Source of the DNA: Methylosinus sp. Sm6
GTDB lineage: Bacteria; Pseudomonadota; Alphaproteobacteria; Rhizobiales; Beijerinckiaceae
Assembly (NCBI RefSeq): GCF_019802345.1
Contig: NZ_JAINDZ010000041.1
Location: forward strand, 1 to 40,655
DNA: 40,655 nucleotides
Direction: 5' to 3'
The position numbers and the translations under genes are program-made. This document shows positions 18,040 through 24,237 of this stretch, piece after piece. Position 1 is the first letter of the stretch. Each line of letters starts with the position of its first letter. The notes under the pieces are model-generated. The model did not search any database, was not told the origin of the DNA, and saw only the letters and a list, made by a program, of their open reading frames with translations.

Positions 18040-19512
18040 TCAGATGTCGAGACGGCTCTTCAACAGCTCGTTGACGGCCTGCGGATTGGCCTTGCCGCCC
18101 GTCGCCTTCATCACCTGGCCGACGAACCAGCCGAGCATGGTCGGCTTCGCTTTGGCTTGCGCGACCTTGTCGGGATTGGCGGCGATGATCTCGTCGATCG
18201 CCTTCTCGATCGCGCCTGTGTCCGTCACCTGCTTCAGCCCGCGCGTCTCGACGATCTCGCGCGGATCGCCGCCCTCCTGCCAGACGATCTCGAACAGGTC
18301 CTTGCCGATCTTGCCGGAGATCACGCCCTGCGAAATGAGATCGACGATGGCGCCGATCGCCTGCGCCGAGACCGGCGAGCGCGTGATGTCGAGTCCCTCC
18401 TTGTTGAGGCGGCCGAACAGCTCGTTGATTACCCAATTGGCGACGAGCTTGGCGTCGCGGCCTTTCGCCGCCTCCTCGAAGAAATCCGCGCTCGCGCGCT
18501 CGGCGACGAGCACGCCCGCGTCATAAGGCGGCAGGCCGTACTGCGCGATGAAGCGCGCGCGCTTGTCGTCGGGGAGCTCCGGCAGCTCCGCCTTCAGCGC
18601 ATCGACGAAAGGCTGATCGAATTCGAGCGGCAGCAGATCCGGGTCCGGGAAATAGCGGTAGTCGTGCGCCTCCTCCTTGGAGCGCATCGAGCGCGTCTCG
18701 CCTTTGCCCGGATCGAAGAGGCGCGTCTCCTGCGAGATCTTGCCGCCGTCCTCCAGGATGCCGATCTGGCGGCGCGCCTCGACCTCGATCGCCTGGCCGA
18801 TGAAGCGGATCGAATTGACGTTCTTGATCTCGCAGCGCGTGCCGAAGGGCGCGCCCGGCTTCCTCACCGAGACATTGACGTCGGCGCGCAGCGAGCCCTG
18901 CTCCATATTGCCGTCGCAGGAGCCGATGTAGCGCAGGATGGTGCGCAGCTTGGAGACATAGGCGCGGGCCTCCTCGGCCGAGCGGATATCGGGCTTGGAG
19001 ACGATCTCCATCAGCGCGACCCCCGAGCGGTTGAGGTCGACATGGCTCTCGGTGGCGGAGAGATCGTGCAGCGACTTGCCGGCGTCCTGCTCGAGATGCA
19101 GCCGTTCTATGCCGACGGTGATCCGCTCCGTCGGCGTCACATCGACGACCACCTCGCCCTCGCCGACGATCGGATGCTTGTACTGCGAGATCTGATAGCC
19201 CTGCGGCAAATCGGGATAGAAATAATTCTTCCGATCGAACACCGAGCGCAGATTGATCTTGGCCTGCAGGCCGAGACCGGTGCGGACGGCCTGGCGGACG
19301 CATTCCTCGTTGATGACCGGCAGCATGCCCGGCATGGCCGCGTCGACCAGCGACACATGGTCATTGGGCTCGCCCCCATATTCGGCGCTGGCGCCGGAGA
19401 ACAGCTTGGCCTTGCTGCTCACCTGGGCGTGGATCTCCATACCGACGACGACCTCCCAGTCGCCCGTCGCGCCTTTTATGAGCTTGGATGGAGAGGCGGT
19501 TGTGATCGTCAT
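18040..19512 (-). CDS. gatB: Aspartyl/glutamyl-tRNA(Asn/Gln) amidotransferase subunit B
   Basis: This 490-residue subunit B of the GatCAB complex binds misacylated Asp-tRNA(Asn)/Glu-tRNA(Gln) and activates its side chain with ATP so that GatA-derived ammonia can amidate it. The N-terminal [20 protein letters not shown] motif and the downstream [18 protein letters not shown] and RADVNVSV segments are characteristic, as is the C-terminal YqeY-like helical domain ending in the PQAVNELL region. The start at 19512 has GAGGGA about 9 nt upstream. It is separated from gatA by aroQ, an AAA ATPase gene and a DUF4276 gene, with a 108-bp gap upstream that may hold its own promoter. Confidence 0.97.
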
Positions 19513-19563
19513 CGTGGTCCCTCGACATTCGAAAGGCGCCGCGCGGGCGCTCCGGCGCTGGAG

Positions 19564-19569
19564 ACTATA
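19564..19569 (-). promoter_or_regulatory. Possible -10 box upstream of gatB
   Basis: In the 108-bp gap between the DUF4276 gene and gatB the minus strand reads TTATATAGT, containing a TATAGT -10-like hexamer about 52 nt before the gatB start. The -35 region at the right distance (TCGCAA) is weak. An independent promoter would let gatB be transcribed despite the inserted ATPase/DUF4276 pair. Confidence 0.25.
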
Positions 19570-19620
19570 TAAGCAAAAGCCATGCGTTGCGATAAGAGGG
19601 TCCGGAGGACACGGCGCGGG

Positions 19621-20184
19621 TCACGTCGGCAGGGACAGGGAAGAGATGCGCGCGATCCCCTCGACGAGCGCTCGAAAGCTGGCGGAGCGATTGCGCGTAT
19701 AGGACAAGCGATGCGCCATGCGGCGCGCGCCGTCGATCTTTTGAAAGGCGGGGCAGAGCTTGACCAGTTCCCTCGACGGCTTGGCGATCGCGTCGGGGTC
19801 ACGATACGCGGCCTTGGCAGAGAGATTGCGCAGGGACGGCTCGCCGAGGACGTTTGCAAGAGTATCGGGGTCGCCGAAATACCACGCTTCCAACTCCTGA
19901 CATACGATACGCACCAGCGTGTCATCCCGCCCCGCCTCCGCGCAAATCTCCGCGAGTGCGGCTTTCAGCGCCTTGCAGTCCTTGCCGTCGCTGTCTCGGA
20001 TCACGACGAAGCGATCGTCGGGGCGGTTCCACGCCTTGAGCTTTCGAGGCGGGCTCTTTTCCAGATCGCTCTTGCCTTCATGAGCTATGCAGAGGATGTC
20101 GAGAGCCGGAAACAGCCGCGGGAGAAGCGCTTCGAGCAGAACTTTGATCGACGGCTCTTCCAAGAGGAAGACGAGCCGGCTCAT
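19621..20184 (-). CDS. DUF4276 protein, TOPRIM-like partner of the adjacent ATPase
   Basis: This 187-residue protein matches the DUF4276 pattern (PF14103): FLLEEPS at residues 6-12, HEGKSDLEKS...RKLKAW at 35-51, VIRDSDGKDC at 61-70, and a conserved QELEAWYFGD at 96-105. An early glutamate (E9/E10) followed by D64-x-D66 is the arrangement of metal-binding residues in TOPRIM nuclease or primase domains, so a nuclease-type role is inferred. The ATG at 20184 overlaps the stop of the AAA ATPase gene by 4 nt (ATGA), giving coupled translation and implying a complex. It sits between aroQ/gatA and gatB, splitting the gatCAB genes. Defence against phage is a reasonable inference, not shown. Confidence 0.82.
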   Translation of the reverse strand: MSRLVFLLEEPSIKVLLEALLPRLFPALDILCIAHEGKSDLEKSPPRKLKAWNRPDDRFVVIRDSDGKDCKALKAALAEICAEAGRDDTLVRIVCQELEAWYFGDPDTLANVLGEPSLRNLSAKAAYRDPDAIAKPSRELVKLCPAFQKIDGARRMAHRLSYTRNRSASFRALVEGIARISSLSLPT

Positions 20185-21371
20185 CGAGGATGCGCTCCTT
20201 CGAACAACCCCTGCTTCCACAAGGCTCCCGGCAGATCGCCCTCCGCGAAGAGGCTTACCAGGAGCGGATCGTCCGACGCCCGCCGAACCTCAGTGAAGCC
20301 CTCGCGCTTCACGAGCCAAAAAATTTCTTCGAGGCGCGCGCCGTTCAAGAAATCGGGAGAATGGGTGGAAACGAAAACCTGCCCGCCGCGCTCGGCATAG
20401 GCTCTGAATTCTTCGATCAGTTCGATCATCAGCTCTGGGTAGAGCTGGTTCTCGGGCTCCTCGACCGCGAGCAGCGGAAACGGTTTCGGATCGTGGAGCA
20501 GCACGAGATAGGCGAACATCTTGATCGTGCCGTCGGACACGTAGCGCGCGATGAACGGGTCCTTGAAGCTGCCGACCTTGAAGCGCAGGACGAGGCGGCC
20601 GTCCTCGGTCGGGCGCGCCTCGACTCCGGCGACGCCCGGCACCCGCCGCTTCATGGCGTCGAGCACCTTGTCGAAGCGCTCGCGATGATGCTCGTAGAGA
20701 TATTGAGCGACCTGGGCGACATTCTCGCCACGTGTCGACAAGTGTTCGGACTCCCCTGCCTCGACGCTCGGACGCGCGTCGGCAATATGGAAGTCCGACA
20801 CGTACCAGCTTTCGATCAGGCTGCGGAACTCCGAGACCACCCGAAACGCCCGGAACTGGCCGAGGCCCTTTATGGCGAGCACGCTCGGGTCGTCGAGTTG
20901 ATAATCTTGCCGAAGCTCTTTCGCGCCCGCCTCGCCGTAATCGGCCTCGTTGGTGATCGCCGCCCCGCGGCCTCGGGAAAAATCGACGAAATGCCAAGGC
21001 TGGCCATAACGGCCACGTCGGAATTTCAAGATTTCCCGTTCGACGACCGCTCTCCCGCCATCCGCTGCGATCTGCAGGTCATAAGTCGCGAGCCGGCCGC
21101 CGCTCTCACGAAATTTCACCGTGATGCCGATAGGGCCTTTTTCACCACGGCTCACGAGCTCGTTGAACCCACCTCGTCGCGTGACGGCGGTCGCGACATT
21201 CTGCGTCAGCGCCTCCTTCAGGAAGCTGAACACATCGAACAGGGTCGACTTGCCGGAGCCGTTGGCGCCCACGACGACGGTTAGCCGAGCGAGATCCGAG
21301 AACTTCATATCATTGAAAAGACGGTAGTTTCTGATTTCGAGCGATTCGATCTGCATCGGCTGTGACATCAT
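20181..21371 (-). CDS. AAA/ABC-type ATPase of the OLD/RecF-like class (AAA_21)
   Basis: This 396-residue ATPase begins with the SMC/RecF-like lead IESLEIRNYRLFNDMKFSDL. Walker A GANGSGKST is at 35-43. A signature-like segment SDGTIKMFAYL is at 279-289, a Walker B with two glutamates (LLAVEEPENQLYPEL, E304/E305) follows, and a STHSPDFL switch histidine is at H337. There is no C-terminal TOPRIM domain, which OLD nucleases have. Instead a separate TOPRIM-like DUF4276 gene follows with a 4-nt overlap, so the pair looks like a split OLD/PARIS-like unit. The start at 21371 has GAGG 6-9 nt upstream; ATG at 21368 is an alternative. It lies 45 nt after aroQ on the same strand. Confidence 0.85.
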   Translation of the reverse strand: MMSQPMQIESLEIRNYRLFNDMKFSDLARLTVVVGANGSGKSTLFDVFSFLKEALTQNVATAVTRRGGFNELVSRGEKGPIGITVKFRESGGRLATYDLQIAADGGRAVVEREILKFRRGRYGQPWHFVDFSRGRGAAITNEADYGEAGAKELRQDYQLDDPSVLAIKGLGQFRAFRVVSEFRSLIESWYVSDFHIADARPSVEAGESEHLSTRGENVAQVAQYLYEHHRERFDKVLDAMKRRVPGVAGVEARPTEDGRLVLRFKVGSFKDPFIARYVSDGTIKMFAYLVLLHDPKPFPLLAVEEPENQLYPELMIELIEEFRAYAERGGQVFVSTHSPDFLNGARLEEIFWLVKREGFTEVRRASDDPLLVSLFAEGDLPGALWKQGLFEGAHPR

Positions 21372-21416
21372 GCGGTCCTCAGCGTGGGTACAGACAGCCG
21401 AACTCGAATGCACACG

Positions 21417-21761
21417 TCAGTCGGCGGACGGTCCCGTCCTTCCATGGTCCCGCTCGCCCATCAGCTGCTCCTCATGCGCGATCGACCATTCGATCAGCGC
21501 GCGCCACAGCGCTTGCGCCAGATCGGCCGACATTCCCTCGCGCCGCGCCGCCTCGGCGACGCGCGCCAAAACTTCGTCCACGCGCTCGGGCACGCGCGCG
21601 GAAATGCCGAGGCCGGGCTTCACCGCCGCGGCGCGCTCGATCTGGCGCTGGCGGCGGGCGAGCAGCGCGACGAGCTCGTCGTCGAGCGCGTCGATGGTCG
21701 CGCGCACATCCGCCATCTCGTCGCGCGGGTCGAGCTTTGCGGCCTCTGCTCTGCGCGTCAT
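21417..21761 (-). CDS. aroQ: Chorismate mutase (AroQ class)
   Basis: This 114-residue, all-helical protein is predicted to convert chorismate to prephenate on the path to phenylalanine and tyrosine. It has the AroQ layout: an N-terminal helix MADVRATIDALDDELVALLARR with the family's R..ID..D..L..LL..R pattern, a middle helix carrying the active-site lysine/arginine region (ERAAAVK), and a C-terminal helix ALWRALIEWSIAHEEQ. The start at 21761 overlaps the gatA stop (TGATG), so it is translationally coupled to gatA. It is a single-domain enzyme without a fused prephenate dehydratase. Confidence 0.85.
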   Translation of the reverse strand: MTRRAEAAKLDPRDEMADVRATIDALDDELVALLARRQRQIERAAAVKPGLGISARVPERVDEVLARVAEAARREGMSADLAQALWRALIEWSIAHEEQLMGERDHGRTGPSAD

Positions 21762-23266
21762 CACGCCTTCGTCCACCAGGGCTGCGGGAAGTCGATTTTC
21801 GGAGCCGCGCTCTCCAGCGCCGCGGCCAGCGAGAACAAGGTCGCCTCGTCGAAGGGGCGGCCGATCAGCTGCAGGCCGAGCGGCAGGCCGTCGGCGCCGA
21901 GCCCGCCCGGCACGGCGATGCCCGGCAGGCCGGCCATGTTCACCGTCACGGTGAACACATCGTTCAAATACATCTCGACCGGATCGGCCTTGCCCTTCTC
22001 GCCCTGCGCGAATGCGGTGGAGGGCGTCGCCGGCGTCAGCACGGCGTCGACGCCAGCCGCGAAGGCCTCGTCGAAATCGCGCTTGATCAGGCTGCGAATC
22101 TTTTGCGCGCGCACATAATAAGCGTCGTAATAGCCGTGCGAGAGCACATAGGTTCCGATCATCACGCGGCGGCGCACCTCCGGCCCGAAGCCGGCGGCGC
22201 GCGTCTTCTCGTACATATCGGAAATGTCGCGGCCCTTCTCGCGCAGGCCGTAGCGCACCCCGTCATAGCGCGCGAGATTGGAGGAGGCCTCCGCCGGCGC
22301 GATGATGTAATAGGCCGGCAGCGCATAGCGCGTATGCGGCAAGGAAATCTCGACGATCTCGGCGCCGGCGTCGCGCAGCCAAGCGGCGGCCTGATCCCAC
22401 AGCGCATTGATCTCGGCGCCGCCGCCGATCCGGTATTCTTTCGGAATGCCGATGCGCCGTCCCTTCACCGAGGCGCCGATCGCCGCCTCGTAATCGGGAA
22501 CCGGCGCATCGACGCTGGTCGTGTCCTTCGGATCATGGCCAGCCATCGAGCGCAGCATGATTGCCGCGTCGCGCACCGTGCGCGTGATCGGCCCGGCCTG
22601 GTCGAGCGAGGAGGCGAAGGCGACGATGCCCCAGCGCGAGCAGCGTCCATAGGTGGGCTTGACGCCGACCGTGCCGGTGAAGGCGGCCGGCTGGCGGATC
22701 GAGCCGCCCGTGTCGGTCGCCGTGGCGCCGAGCGCGAGACGCGCCGCCACCGCCGCCGAGGAGCCGCCCGACGAGCCGCCGGGAACGATCTTCGCCTCGT
22801 CGACGCCATCGCCCTTCTTGCGCCGCCATGGCGAGACCACCGGACCGAAAGCGCTGGTCTCATTCGATGAGCCCATGGCGAATTCGTCGAGATTGAGCTT
22901 GCCGAGCATCACCGCGCCGTCGCGCCAGAGATTGGCGGAGACGGTGGATTCATATGTGGGCGTGAAATCGTCGAGGATGCGGCTCCCCGCCGTCGTGCGC
23001 ACGCCCTTTGTGCAATAGAGATCCTTGATGCCGAGCGGCAGGCCTTCGAGCGGTCGCGCCTCGCCGCGCGAAAGGCGCGCGTCGCTCTCCTGCGCGGCGG
23101 CGAGCGCGAGCTCCGGCGTCTTTGTAATAAAGGCGTTCAAGGCGCCGGCCTTCTCGATCGCGTCGACATGGGCGTGCGTCAGCTCGACGGAGGAGAGCTT
23201 CTTGGCGACGAGCGCGTCGCGCGCCTCGGCGAGTGAGAGATGCGTGGGATCGGACATGAAGCTCAT
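21761..23266 (-). CDS. gatA: Aspartyl/glutamyl-tRNA(Asn/Gln) amidotransferase subunit A
   Basis: This 501-residue amidase subunit of GatCAB releases ammonia from glutamine for tRNA amidation. The amidase-signature catalytic triad is visible as K81 (PLGIKDLYC), cis-serine S165 (PGGSSGGSS) and S189 ([10 protein letters not shown]). Length and order fit the family. The start at 23266 has GAGAG just upstream; ATG at 23257 ([16 protein letters not shown]) aligns as well with relatives. The longer frame to 23416 overlaps gatC and is rejected. gatC lies 55 nt upstream and aroQ overlaps its stop. Confidence 0.97.
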
Positions 23267-23321
23267 GGCTCTCGGATGGAAGGGCGTCCCCGCTCTGCCG
23301 CGGGACGTTCGCTCGATGATC

Positions 23322-23609
23322 TTATTCGACGACCTTGGGGACCACGAAATAATGGTCCTCGCGCTCCGGCGCATTGGCGAGAACGTCGTCGGCGAAGCCG
23401 CCGTCGGTGACGACATCCTGCCGCTTCTTCATTTGCATCGGCAGGACGGAGGTCAGCGGCTCGACGCCCTCGACATCGACACTGCTCAGCTCCTCGACGA
23501 AGGCCAGAATGGCGTTGAGCTCTCCGCCGAGCCTCTCGACCTCGTCGTCCTCGACGGCGATGCGCGCGAGATGGGCGATGCGGCGAACGGTGGCCTGATC
23601 GACGGACAT
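23322..23609 (-). CDS. gatC: Aspartyl/glutamyl-tRNA(Asn/Gln) amidotransferase subunit C
   Basis: This 95-residue linker subunit wraps around GatA and GatB and stabilises the complex. The sequence shows the GatC pattern: [19 protein letters not shown] at the N-terminus, a central [11 protein letters not shown] helix, the [10 protein letters not shown] segment, and a C-terminal [19 protein letters not shown] that normally contacts GatB. A GGAG site lies about 9 nt upstream of the ATG at 23609. It is first in the gatC-gatA strand and divergent from ruvX. Confidence 0.95.
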
Positions 23610-23754
23610 TTTCTGAAAGCTCCGTTCCGGTGTCGTCTGCGCGCTATACCACTCGCGGCTTCGGCGGCGCAATGCGCGCGCCCCGGGGAAGCGCGCTCCA
23701 TGCAACGGCCGCGCCGCAATTTGCGCCGGCGCGCAGGCGTGCTAGGCGAGAGCG
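23610..23754. promoter_or_regulatory. Divergent promoter region gatC/ruvX
   Basis: 145 bp separate the divergent gatC and ruvX starts and must carry the promoter of the gatCA-aroQ strand and that of ruvX. It is GC-rich with no obvious operator. Confidence 0.5.
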
Positions 23755-24237
23755 ATGACAGGCGAAAAGATGACGATCGAGGAGCTGGCCGCGCTTCTGC
23801 CCGCCAAAGGCCGGCTGATGGGGCTCGATGTCGGAACCAAGACCATCGGGCTCGCGCTCTCCGACGTGGAGCGCCGCCTCGCTTCGCCTCTGGAGACGAT
23901 CCGCCGCGGCAAATTCACGGCTGACGCGGAGCGTCTCGACGCGCTCGCAACGCAATTCGACATCGCCGCGCTGATCGTCGGCCTGCCGCTCAACATGGAC
24001 GGGTCCGAAGGCCCGCGCGCGCAAGCGACGCGGGCCTTCATGCGCAATCTCGGCGCGCGCTTCGCGCTGCGCTACGCCTTCTGGGACGAGCGGCTTTCGA
24101 CCGCCGCCGTCACCAGAGAGCTGCTGGCGCAGGACGCCTCGCGCGCCAAGCGGGCGGCGGTCGTGGACCGCATGGCCGCCGCCTATATTCTGCAAGGCGC
24201 CCTCGACAGGCTCAGGCGCCTCGCCTCGCCGGCCTAG
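23755..24237 (+). CDS. ruvX: Pre-16S rRNA nuclease / Holliday junction resolvase-like protein YqgF
   Basis: This 160-residue cytoplasmic protein has an RNase H-like fold. The YqgF family processes the 5' end of 16S rRNA precursors and was first annotated as a Holliday junction resolvase. Motifs are GLDVGTKTIGLALSD with catalytic D25, IVGLPLNMDGSEGPRA, and WDERLST followed by VVDRMAAAYILQ, giving the acidic residues of the active site. ATG at 23770 is an alternative start. It is divergent from gatC and convergent, 10 nt apart, with the glycine-rich protein gene. Confidence 0.93.
   Translation: MTGEKMTIEELAALLPAKGRLMGLDVGTKTIGLALSDVERRLASPLETIRRGKFTADAERLDALATQFDIAALIVGLPLNMDGSEGPRAQATRAFMRNLGARFALRYAFWDERLSTAAVTRELLAQDASRAKRAAVVDRMAAAYILQGALDRLRRLASPA

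Follow-up and report, generated by a model that had tools for sequence, protein, structure and literature searches.

A stand-alone copy of the candidate defence system HEC-01, with a predicted OLD-type TOPRIM nuclease, between the aroQ and gatB genes of Methylosinus sp. Sm6

The 40,655-nucleotide stretch of contig NZ_JAINDZ010000041.1 from Methylosinus sp. Sm6 that we analysed (hereafter the window) carries on its minus strand a pair of overlapping genes, encoding an ATPase of 396 amino acids (aa; 20181..21371) and a DUF4276 protein of 187 aa (19621..20184), which is a stand-alone member of HEC-01, a candidate system already catalogued in PADLOC, and not a new system. The best PADLOC match of the ATPase was PDLC04144 (HEC-01B; E 5.3e-176, residues 6-396 of 396) and that of the DUF4276 protein was PDLC04143 (HEC-01A; E 6.1e-60, residues 1-182 of 187); since the profile matches stand at 5e-176 and 6e-60, the observation is far beyond chance. 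From these matches, the predicted structures and the analogy with known systems, we consider that the pair is probably an anti-phage copy of HEC-01, in which the ATPase would be the regulator and DUF4276 a TOPRIM nuclease effector, both carried as a mobile two-gene cassette.

In Pfam, the ATPase, an ABC ATPase of the OLD/AriA/PtuA/Rad50 kind lacking a TOPRIM domain, matched AAA_21 (E 5e-33) and no TOPRIM model, and the sole match of the DUF4276 protein was PF14103 (E 2e-18). The Pfam text of AAA_21, which reads "putative AbiEii toxin", was treated as a family description only and not as an identification. The stop of the ATPase gene and the start of the DUF4276 gene share a 4-bp ATGA overlap, read from the sequence (20181..20184, minus strand), which suggests translational coupling. 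The initial annotation had already described a minus-strand pair with this overlap and a TOPRIM-less ATPase, and the open reading frames (ORFs) at 20181-21371 and 19621-20184 bear it out.

HEC stands for Hma-embedded candidate, a term that goes back to the preprint of Payne et al. (2024); some HECs are active, HEC-06 among them, according to the sections consulted of two papers (PMC12988326, PMC11411939). Likewise, HEC-01 is listed among the systems of Desulfovibrio piger (PMC12724379), and the consulted sections of these three papers make no mention of a phage-protection test of HEC-01. The window pair has the same two genes, order and overlap as HEC-01, and its homologues lie beside HmaB and HmaC; the window copy differs in lying between a chorismate mutase gene and gatB, outside any Hma operon. 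Hma embedding gave HEC-01 its name, and the PADLOC rule may or may not demand it.

Predicted fold, acidic site and comparison with known systems

The DUF4276 protein was modelled with AlphaFold2 on an alignment of 61 sequences, comprising that of the window and those of 60 of the 68 related loci, which came from one search with one protein and cover close relatives only; loci with an internal stop (L011, L026) and those with a near-copy, fragments or frame problems (L024, L053, L063, L064, L066, L070) were left out. The model reached a mean predicted local distance difference test (pLDDT) score of 94.9 and a predicted template modelling (pTM) score of 0.88, and comprised strand 3-8, helix 11-24, strand 29-34, helix 38-51, strand 58-64, helix 70-83 and strand 90-94, followed by helices. 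Among the best 50 of 1248 Foldseek matches against the PDB, only five chains (6njv, 6nk8 A and B, 6njw and 6njx) fell at E<=0.001, and all five were C-terminal regions of two OLD proteins, from Xanthomonas campestris and Burkholderia pseudomallei, matched with probability 1.00, template modelling (TM) scores of 0.54-0.58 on the query and root-mean-square deviations of 5.4-6.3 Å; the next matches within these 50, from E 0.01, were to other folds. According to the consulted sections of PMC6755086, those C-terminal regions belong to class 2 OLD proteins and combine a TOPRIM domain with a helical one. Sequence searches of the PDB with DUF4276 returned chance-level matches only, and OLD was found by the fold search alone. 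DUF4276 is therefore best described as a predicted OLD-type TOPRIM nuclease candidate, an assignment added by the present analysis; the initial annotation had proposed a TOPRIM relationship from residues only, and comparison of the predicted structure with the PDB led, at E<=0.001, to TOPRIM-bearing regions and not to another fold.

Six of the 26 acidic residues of the window protein (E9, E10, D64, D66, E97 and E99) were identical in 61/61 sequences, and D131 came next in conservation (98%). The E9/E10 and D64-x-D66 residues singled out in the initial annotation were thus the right ones, being invariant throughout the alignment. In the model, E9/E10 follow strand 1, D64/D66 end strand 3 and E97/E99 follow strand 4. 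For the OLD protein of B. pseudomallei, the consulted sections of PMC6755086 give E400, E404, D455, D457, T506 and E508 as metal ligands, with K562 nearby. Matched by order and spacing, and not by residue-level superposition, the two sites share a distance of 55 residues (E400 to D455 in OLD, E9 to D64 in DUF4276), and the T506xE508 of OLD falls in line with E97xE99, each 2 apart, although the middle stretch is shorter in DUF4276 (31 residues from D66 to E97 versus 49 from D457 to T506). The predicted DUF4276 site thus resembles the OLD two-metal site and appears to differ from it in part. Moreover, the same genome encodes a more distant DUF4276 protein in which, by profile alignment, the DxD and the E-x-E-A-W stretch are retained.

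That DUF4276 is a candidate OLD-type TOPRIM nuclease with an invariant acidic site is one of the elements that we believe to be new here. DUF4276 was unmentioned in the literature searched, and no printed TOPRIM assignment was found in it (preprints and most subscription journals fell outside its scope); the PADLOC authors or Pfam may well have noted the relationship already. If correct, the assignment would give a PADLOC candidate a testable mechanism and tie HEC-01 to OLD, Gabija and PARIS.

In an alignment of 39 ATPase sequences (that of the window plus those of 38 paired loci out of 65), G35, G38, G40, K41, S279, G281 and H337 were invariant and D280, E304 and E305 nearly so; we take these residues to be the Walker A, signature, Walker B and H-loop motifs, and the ATPase should bind and hydrolyse ATP. 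Its model (pLDDT 86.5) was closest, by Foldseek, to PtuA of Septu and retrons, with OLD (6p74) and Rad50 lower down, so that the OLD/RecF-like ATPase of the initial annotation can be placed in the OLD/Septu/Rad50 ABC type. The Rad50 match was good (3qku_B, TM 0.68 on target) and would fit a pair of the SbcCD/RecF sort that acts in DNA repair or under replication stress, serving the cell and not directed at phages. This alternative also finds some precedent in the class 5 OLD proteins of Sulfolobales, whose role is in the cell cycle and, it appears, not in defence (consulted sections of PMC12796447), and in related loci without Hma, which lie largely among ordinary genes. However, the patchy presence of the pair (one of ten genus genomes, with ATPase relatives in 5 of 119 family genomes) is unlike that of repair genes, and Hma or type I restriction genes adjoin 27 of the 68 loci; we regard a repair function as quite improbable.

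Among known systems, PARIS (AriA ATPase and AriB TOPRIM protein; class 4 OLD) similarly has its ATPase and TOPRIM effector on separate adjacent genes, the TOPRIM of the window being one by predicted fold, and the window ATPase also matches AriA models in PADLOC (2e-31). The effectors differ, since that of the window is DUF4276, with no AriB model among its 13 PADLOC matches and no AriB chain among the best 50 of 1248 Foldseek matches of its model. The AriB family is presumably DUF4435, as the initial annotation also had it, and only PF14103, not DUF4435, matches the window effector. With class 2 OLD and GajA of Gabija, the pair shares what is the closest solved fold to DUF4276 (the OLD C-terminal region, TOPRIM plus helical part, among the same best 50 matches) and, for class 2 OLD, a metal-site E, DxD and xE that can be matched by order and spacing; in contrast, the ATPase and the TOPRIM candidate of the window are two proteins and not one, no UvrD-like helicase gene adjoins them (the neighbours being chorismate mutase and gatB), and the equivalents of E404 and K562 are not conserved in DUF4276. 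NCBIfam models of MADS matched both proteins (MAD3 the ATPase, 1e-34; MAD4 the DUF4276 protein, 0.0035), although with scores far under the curated cut-offs (120.3 bits against a required 420 for MAD3, and 17.5 against 160 for MAD4). Finally, PtuA of Septu and retrons gave the best Foldseek matches of the ATPase model, but its partner is the HNH nuclease PtuB (PDB entry titles name HNH), while that of the window is DUF4276. The initial annotation had read the pair as an analogous split OLD-type two-gene system; the predicted fold, the ATPase type and the pairing agree with this, while its novelty does not stand, the system being catalogued by PADLOC as HEC-01.

By analogy with AriA and GajA, the ATPase would be the sensor or regulator that holds or gates its partner and senses infection, whereas DUF4276 would be the effector, a nuclease using an E, DxD, ExE metal site to cut nucleic acid once released or activated. 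The two proteins would be expected to form a complex; the substrate could be DNA, as in the closest fold, or tRNA, as for AriB, and the outcome either abortive infection or direct degradation. In PARIS, AriB is held by AriA and set free when a phage protein, for example Ocr, binds; the released AriB then dimerises and cuts tRNA (consulted sections of PMC12409363, PMC10568477, PMC12796447). Furthermore, OLD-ATPase and nuclease dyads occur as backup effectors in BREX loci, and TOPRIM-linked OLD-ABC operons had been described earlier (both as reported in the consulted sections of PMC12839542). HEC-01 is in this respect a candidate for working like a split OLD/PARIS system, judging from the predicted fold and these comparison cases, and the window pair is a candidate for defence activity. 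A further-reaching idea, which we find doubtful, is that HEC-01 is both a further split OLD class and a mobile guard cassette, in which the ATPase would watch a host complex or operon (Hma, type I restriction, or orphan sites such as gatCAB) and phage anti-restriction or takeover would release DUF4276 to cut tRNA or DNA, stopping the infection.

Pairing and genomic context of related loci

The ATPase gene lay directly upstream of the DUF4276 gene in 65 of the 68 loci. Of the three unpaired ones, L053 and L063 are truncated where their contigs end, and L070 has a fragment of DUF4276 and no ATPase match. A 4-base overlap was seen in 39 of the 65 paired loci, as judged by the start of the tblastn match. 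ATPase and DUF4276 thus form a near-obligate pair, and across 38 pairs the distances of the two proteins were correlated (Spearman 0.82; 0/2000 permutations as high).

An alternative is a selfish toxin-antitoxin pair: the nuclease would be the toxin and the ATPase its restraint, the pair would persist because cells suffer when they lose it, and protection from phages would be incidental or missing altogether. The fixed order of the two overlapping genes would fit it, as would the faster divergence of the effector (mean distance 0.49 for DUF4276 versus 0.37 for the ATPase). It might also account for the DUF4276 frames with an internal stop that stand beside an ATPase homologue at two loci of metagenome assemblies (L011:1697-2278 and L026:542-1114), where the stops reflect either effector decay or assembly error. 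On the other hand, an ATPase of 396 aa with conserved ATP-binding residues exceeds the needs of an antitoxin, and the repeated placement in restriction and Hma operons points to defence; we consider this alternative improbable, and it overlaps the anti-phage reading because PARIS behaves as both, AriA having been deposited as an antitoxin.

Embedding in Hma and type I restriction operons was seen directly, and this, together with the orphan copy in an essential operon, is the other new element of the present work. An HmaB and/or HmaC homologue had its edge within 400 bases of the pair in 25 of the 68 loci, as read from match positions, with Hma homologues on both sides in 14 and present only as a fragment in L006 and L038; PADLOC confirmed HmaB and HmaC in all three Hma-adjacent loci tested (L005, L018, L059). 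In two more loci (L054, L060), the pair is enclosed in a type I restriction system, with HsdS on one side and HsdR on the other, bringing the loci adjoining either kind of gene to 27 of 68. The defence association proposed for ATPase-DUF4276 pairs in the initial annotation is accordingly seen in both settings. Neither kind of gene was found beside the pair in the remaining 41 loci, some of which are on short contigs. On a quick ATPase tree (67 rows, 24 with Hma context; 8 of 74 searched loci dropped as short or matchless), the Hma context required 13 changes, five of them forced by starred branches, compared with an average of 20 for shuffled labels (0/500 as low). Part of this context is therefore owed to descent, and it has also switched time and again, with the reservation that some of the "other" rows lie on short contigs.

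This distribution bears on whether the pair could be an accessory that works only together with Hma or type I restriction systems, which would make the gat-operon copy a functionless passenger. The 25 loci adjoining Hma genes and the two with type I restriction genes are in its favour, as is the failure to find HmaC in the same genome (HmaB was not searched for). However, 41 of the 68 loci, some on short contigs, lack either partner, the pair has changed context along the tree as described, and the window copy retains the conserved residues. Moreover, a second, distinct HEC-01 pair of the same genome (contig C140, 86492-88253; L165:6493-8254) also stands alone, just downstream of a gene read as asd. 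It comprises an ATPase of 389 aa (PDLC04180, 2.5e-142) and a DUF4276-like protein of 195 aa (PDLC04194, 4.1e-60), which are 27% (88 aa) and 25% (419 columns) identical to the window pair, and it is found at the same place in two of the ten genus genomes (the own genome and G009). We hold dependence on such partners to be very improbable.

Neighbours were also surveyed in 22 loci without Hma (L060 included) out of the 33 loci longer than 15 kb, giving 84 proteins from ORFs called by a custom script and not a gene finder, with short ORFs omitted. Besides the restriction genes of L060, the defence families among the first 25 of 63 PADLOC families were three PDC-S03 (Uma2) and single DpdE, ZorD and HEC-09.

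Several observations weigh against a defence role for the pair or its proposed nuclease. The neighbours in these 22 loci were largely metabolic (first 25 of 97 Pfam families), the Hma association was counted without a control set of other genes, and the 25 Hma loci are not independent because the Hma context is clustered on the tree. For the window pair itself, HmaC was not found in the genome, as noted, and the other eight window proteins examined with Pfam, namely pyruvate kinase, ALAD, DprA, an ABC transporter, a NAD-dependent ligase, a GGDEF-EAL protein, a PEP-utilising enzyme and one without a match, included no defence gene, which makes for housekeeping and signalling surroundings. As for the effector, its fold matches are only moderate in quality, no invariant acidic residue stands for the metal-B glutamate E404 (at +4, where position 14 varies) and none of the lysines is invariant in the place of K562, R92 being the sole invariant basic residue of the 61 sequences.

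Relatives of the pair were further found on eight plasmid records (one of them, from Aeromonas caviae, of 4.9 Mb), and the phage records searched gave no match. On plasmid pSYSM of Synechocystis sp. PCC 6803 (NC_005229.1), the pair (L166:6808-8549) lies near a RelE/HigA pair, a nucleotidyltransferase/DUF86 pair and a phosphorothioation-associated methyltransferase. With this strain and Tepidimonas fonticaldi (L059), relatives are present in cultured strains, which makes bench tests possible.

Insertion in the gat operon

On the minus strand, the gene order is gatC, gatA (21761..23266; Amidase, 4.4e-139), the type II chorismate mutase gene aroQ (21417..21776; CM_2, 1.2e-19), the ATPase gene, the DUF4276 gene and gatB (18040..19512; GatB_N, 4.8e-116), where Pfam was run for gatA, chorismate mutase and gatB and the gatC label comes from position and the initial annotation. 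The chorismate mutase gene and gatB form the upstream and downstream edges of the insertion, with spacers of 45 bases from the chorismate mutase stop to the ATPase start and of 108 bases from the DUF4276 stop to the gatB start.

Among ten genus genomes, gatB was present in all and the DUF4276 protein only in the own genome. A chorismate mutase homologue lies between gatA and gatB in 9/9 of the other genomes, and the distance from it to gatB, which is 1904 bases here, is 112-245 bases in eight of the nine, with no gene between by inspection. These observations fit a horizontal insertion after the genus arose. The initial annotation had held that the pair splits the gatC-gatA-gatB order; the pair does lie between aroQ and gatB and is missing from nine of the ten genomes, so the insertion stands and the outcome of a pair present in all relatives with no defence association was not found, although the chorismate mutase gene already separated gatA from gatB. 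The difference in guanine-cytosine content is small (0.59-0.64 in the cassette, 0.65-0.72 in the genes before it and 0.63-0.67 in gatB).

In a family sample of 119 genomes, 118 of which gave a gatA match, an ATPase relative (E<=1e-20) was found in five and PF14103 (E<=1e-5) in six. Farther away, a Hma locus in a gammaproteobacterial metagenome genome encodes an ATPase with 81% identity to that of the window, in keeping with horizontal transfer. A two-gene cassette of this kind could move into operons, as into those of Hma and type I restriction and here into gatA-aroQ-gatB; a copy that sits in an essential operon for translation, with no defence genes beside it, indicates that such modules can escape defence-island searches. 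A GajA survey of 60 family genomes was empty, as were the control genomes, and is uninformative.

The gatA-gatB interval (same contig and strand, <20 kb) was measurable in 88 of the 119 family genomes and ranged from 7 to 9601 bp, and it appears as a variable site inside a core operon that takes up different ordinary genes. Seventeen ORFs of nine intervals yielded, by Pfam, a histidine-specific methyltransferase, an FGE-sulfatase/DinB protein, an ArsR-like regulator, an EamA transporter, two glycosyltransferases, a PGPGW protein, HlyD-type and AcrB-type efflux proteins and two glycoside hydrolases with RTX repeats, with six remaining matchless. PADLOC returned nothing at E<=1e-10 for ten ORFs of four intervals. 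A defence hotspot at gatA-gatB, which we considered, is unsupported, the window pair being the sole defence candidate seen in the nine of 88 intervals scanned. In the ninth of the other genus genomes (G008, L115:2006-3769), an unrelated 587-aa ORF lies between aroQ and gatB, with no Pfam or PADLOC match.

As to expression, the pair lies on the same strand between aroQ and gatB and may be transcribed by read-through; the initial annotation went further in supposing constant transcription from the essential operon. A promoter scan of 19400-23800 gave a single sigma-70-like site (0.5 expected), which lies on the opposite strand, and a terminator scan of the same range gave five terminator-like sites (3.2 expected), two of them on the coding strand, nothing being above chance in either; such scans are simple and weak for a genome of this kind, and neither an own promoter nor read-through follows from them. 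By eye, several relatives have an inverted-repeat-like stretch between aroQ and gatB that is missing from the 108-base spacer at 19513-19620, and this spacer contains an AT-rich run, possibly a promoter of gatB.

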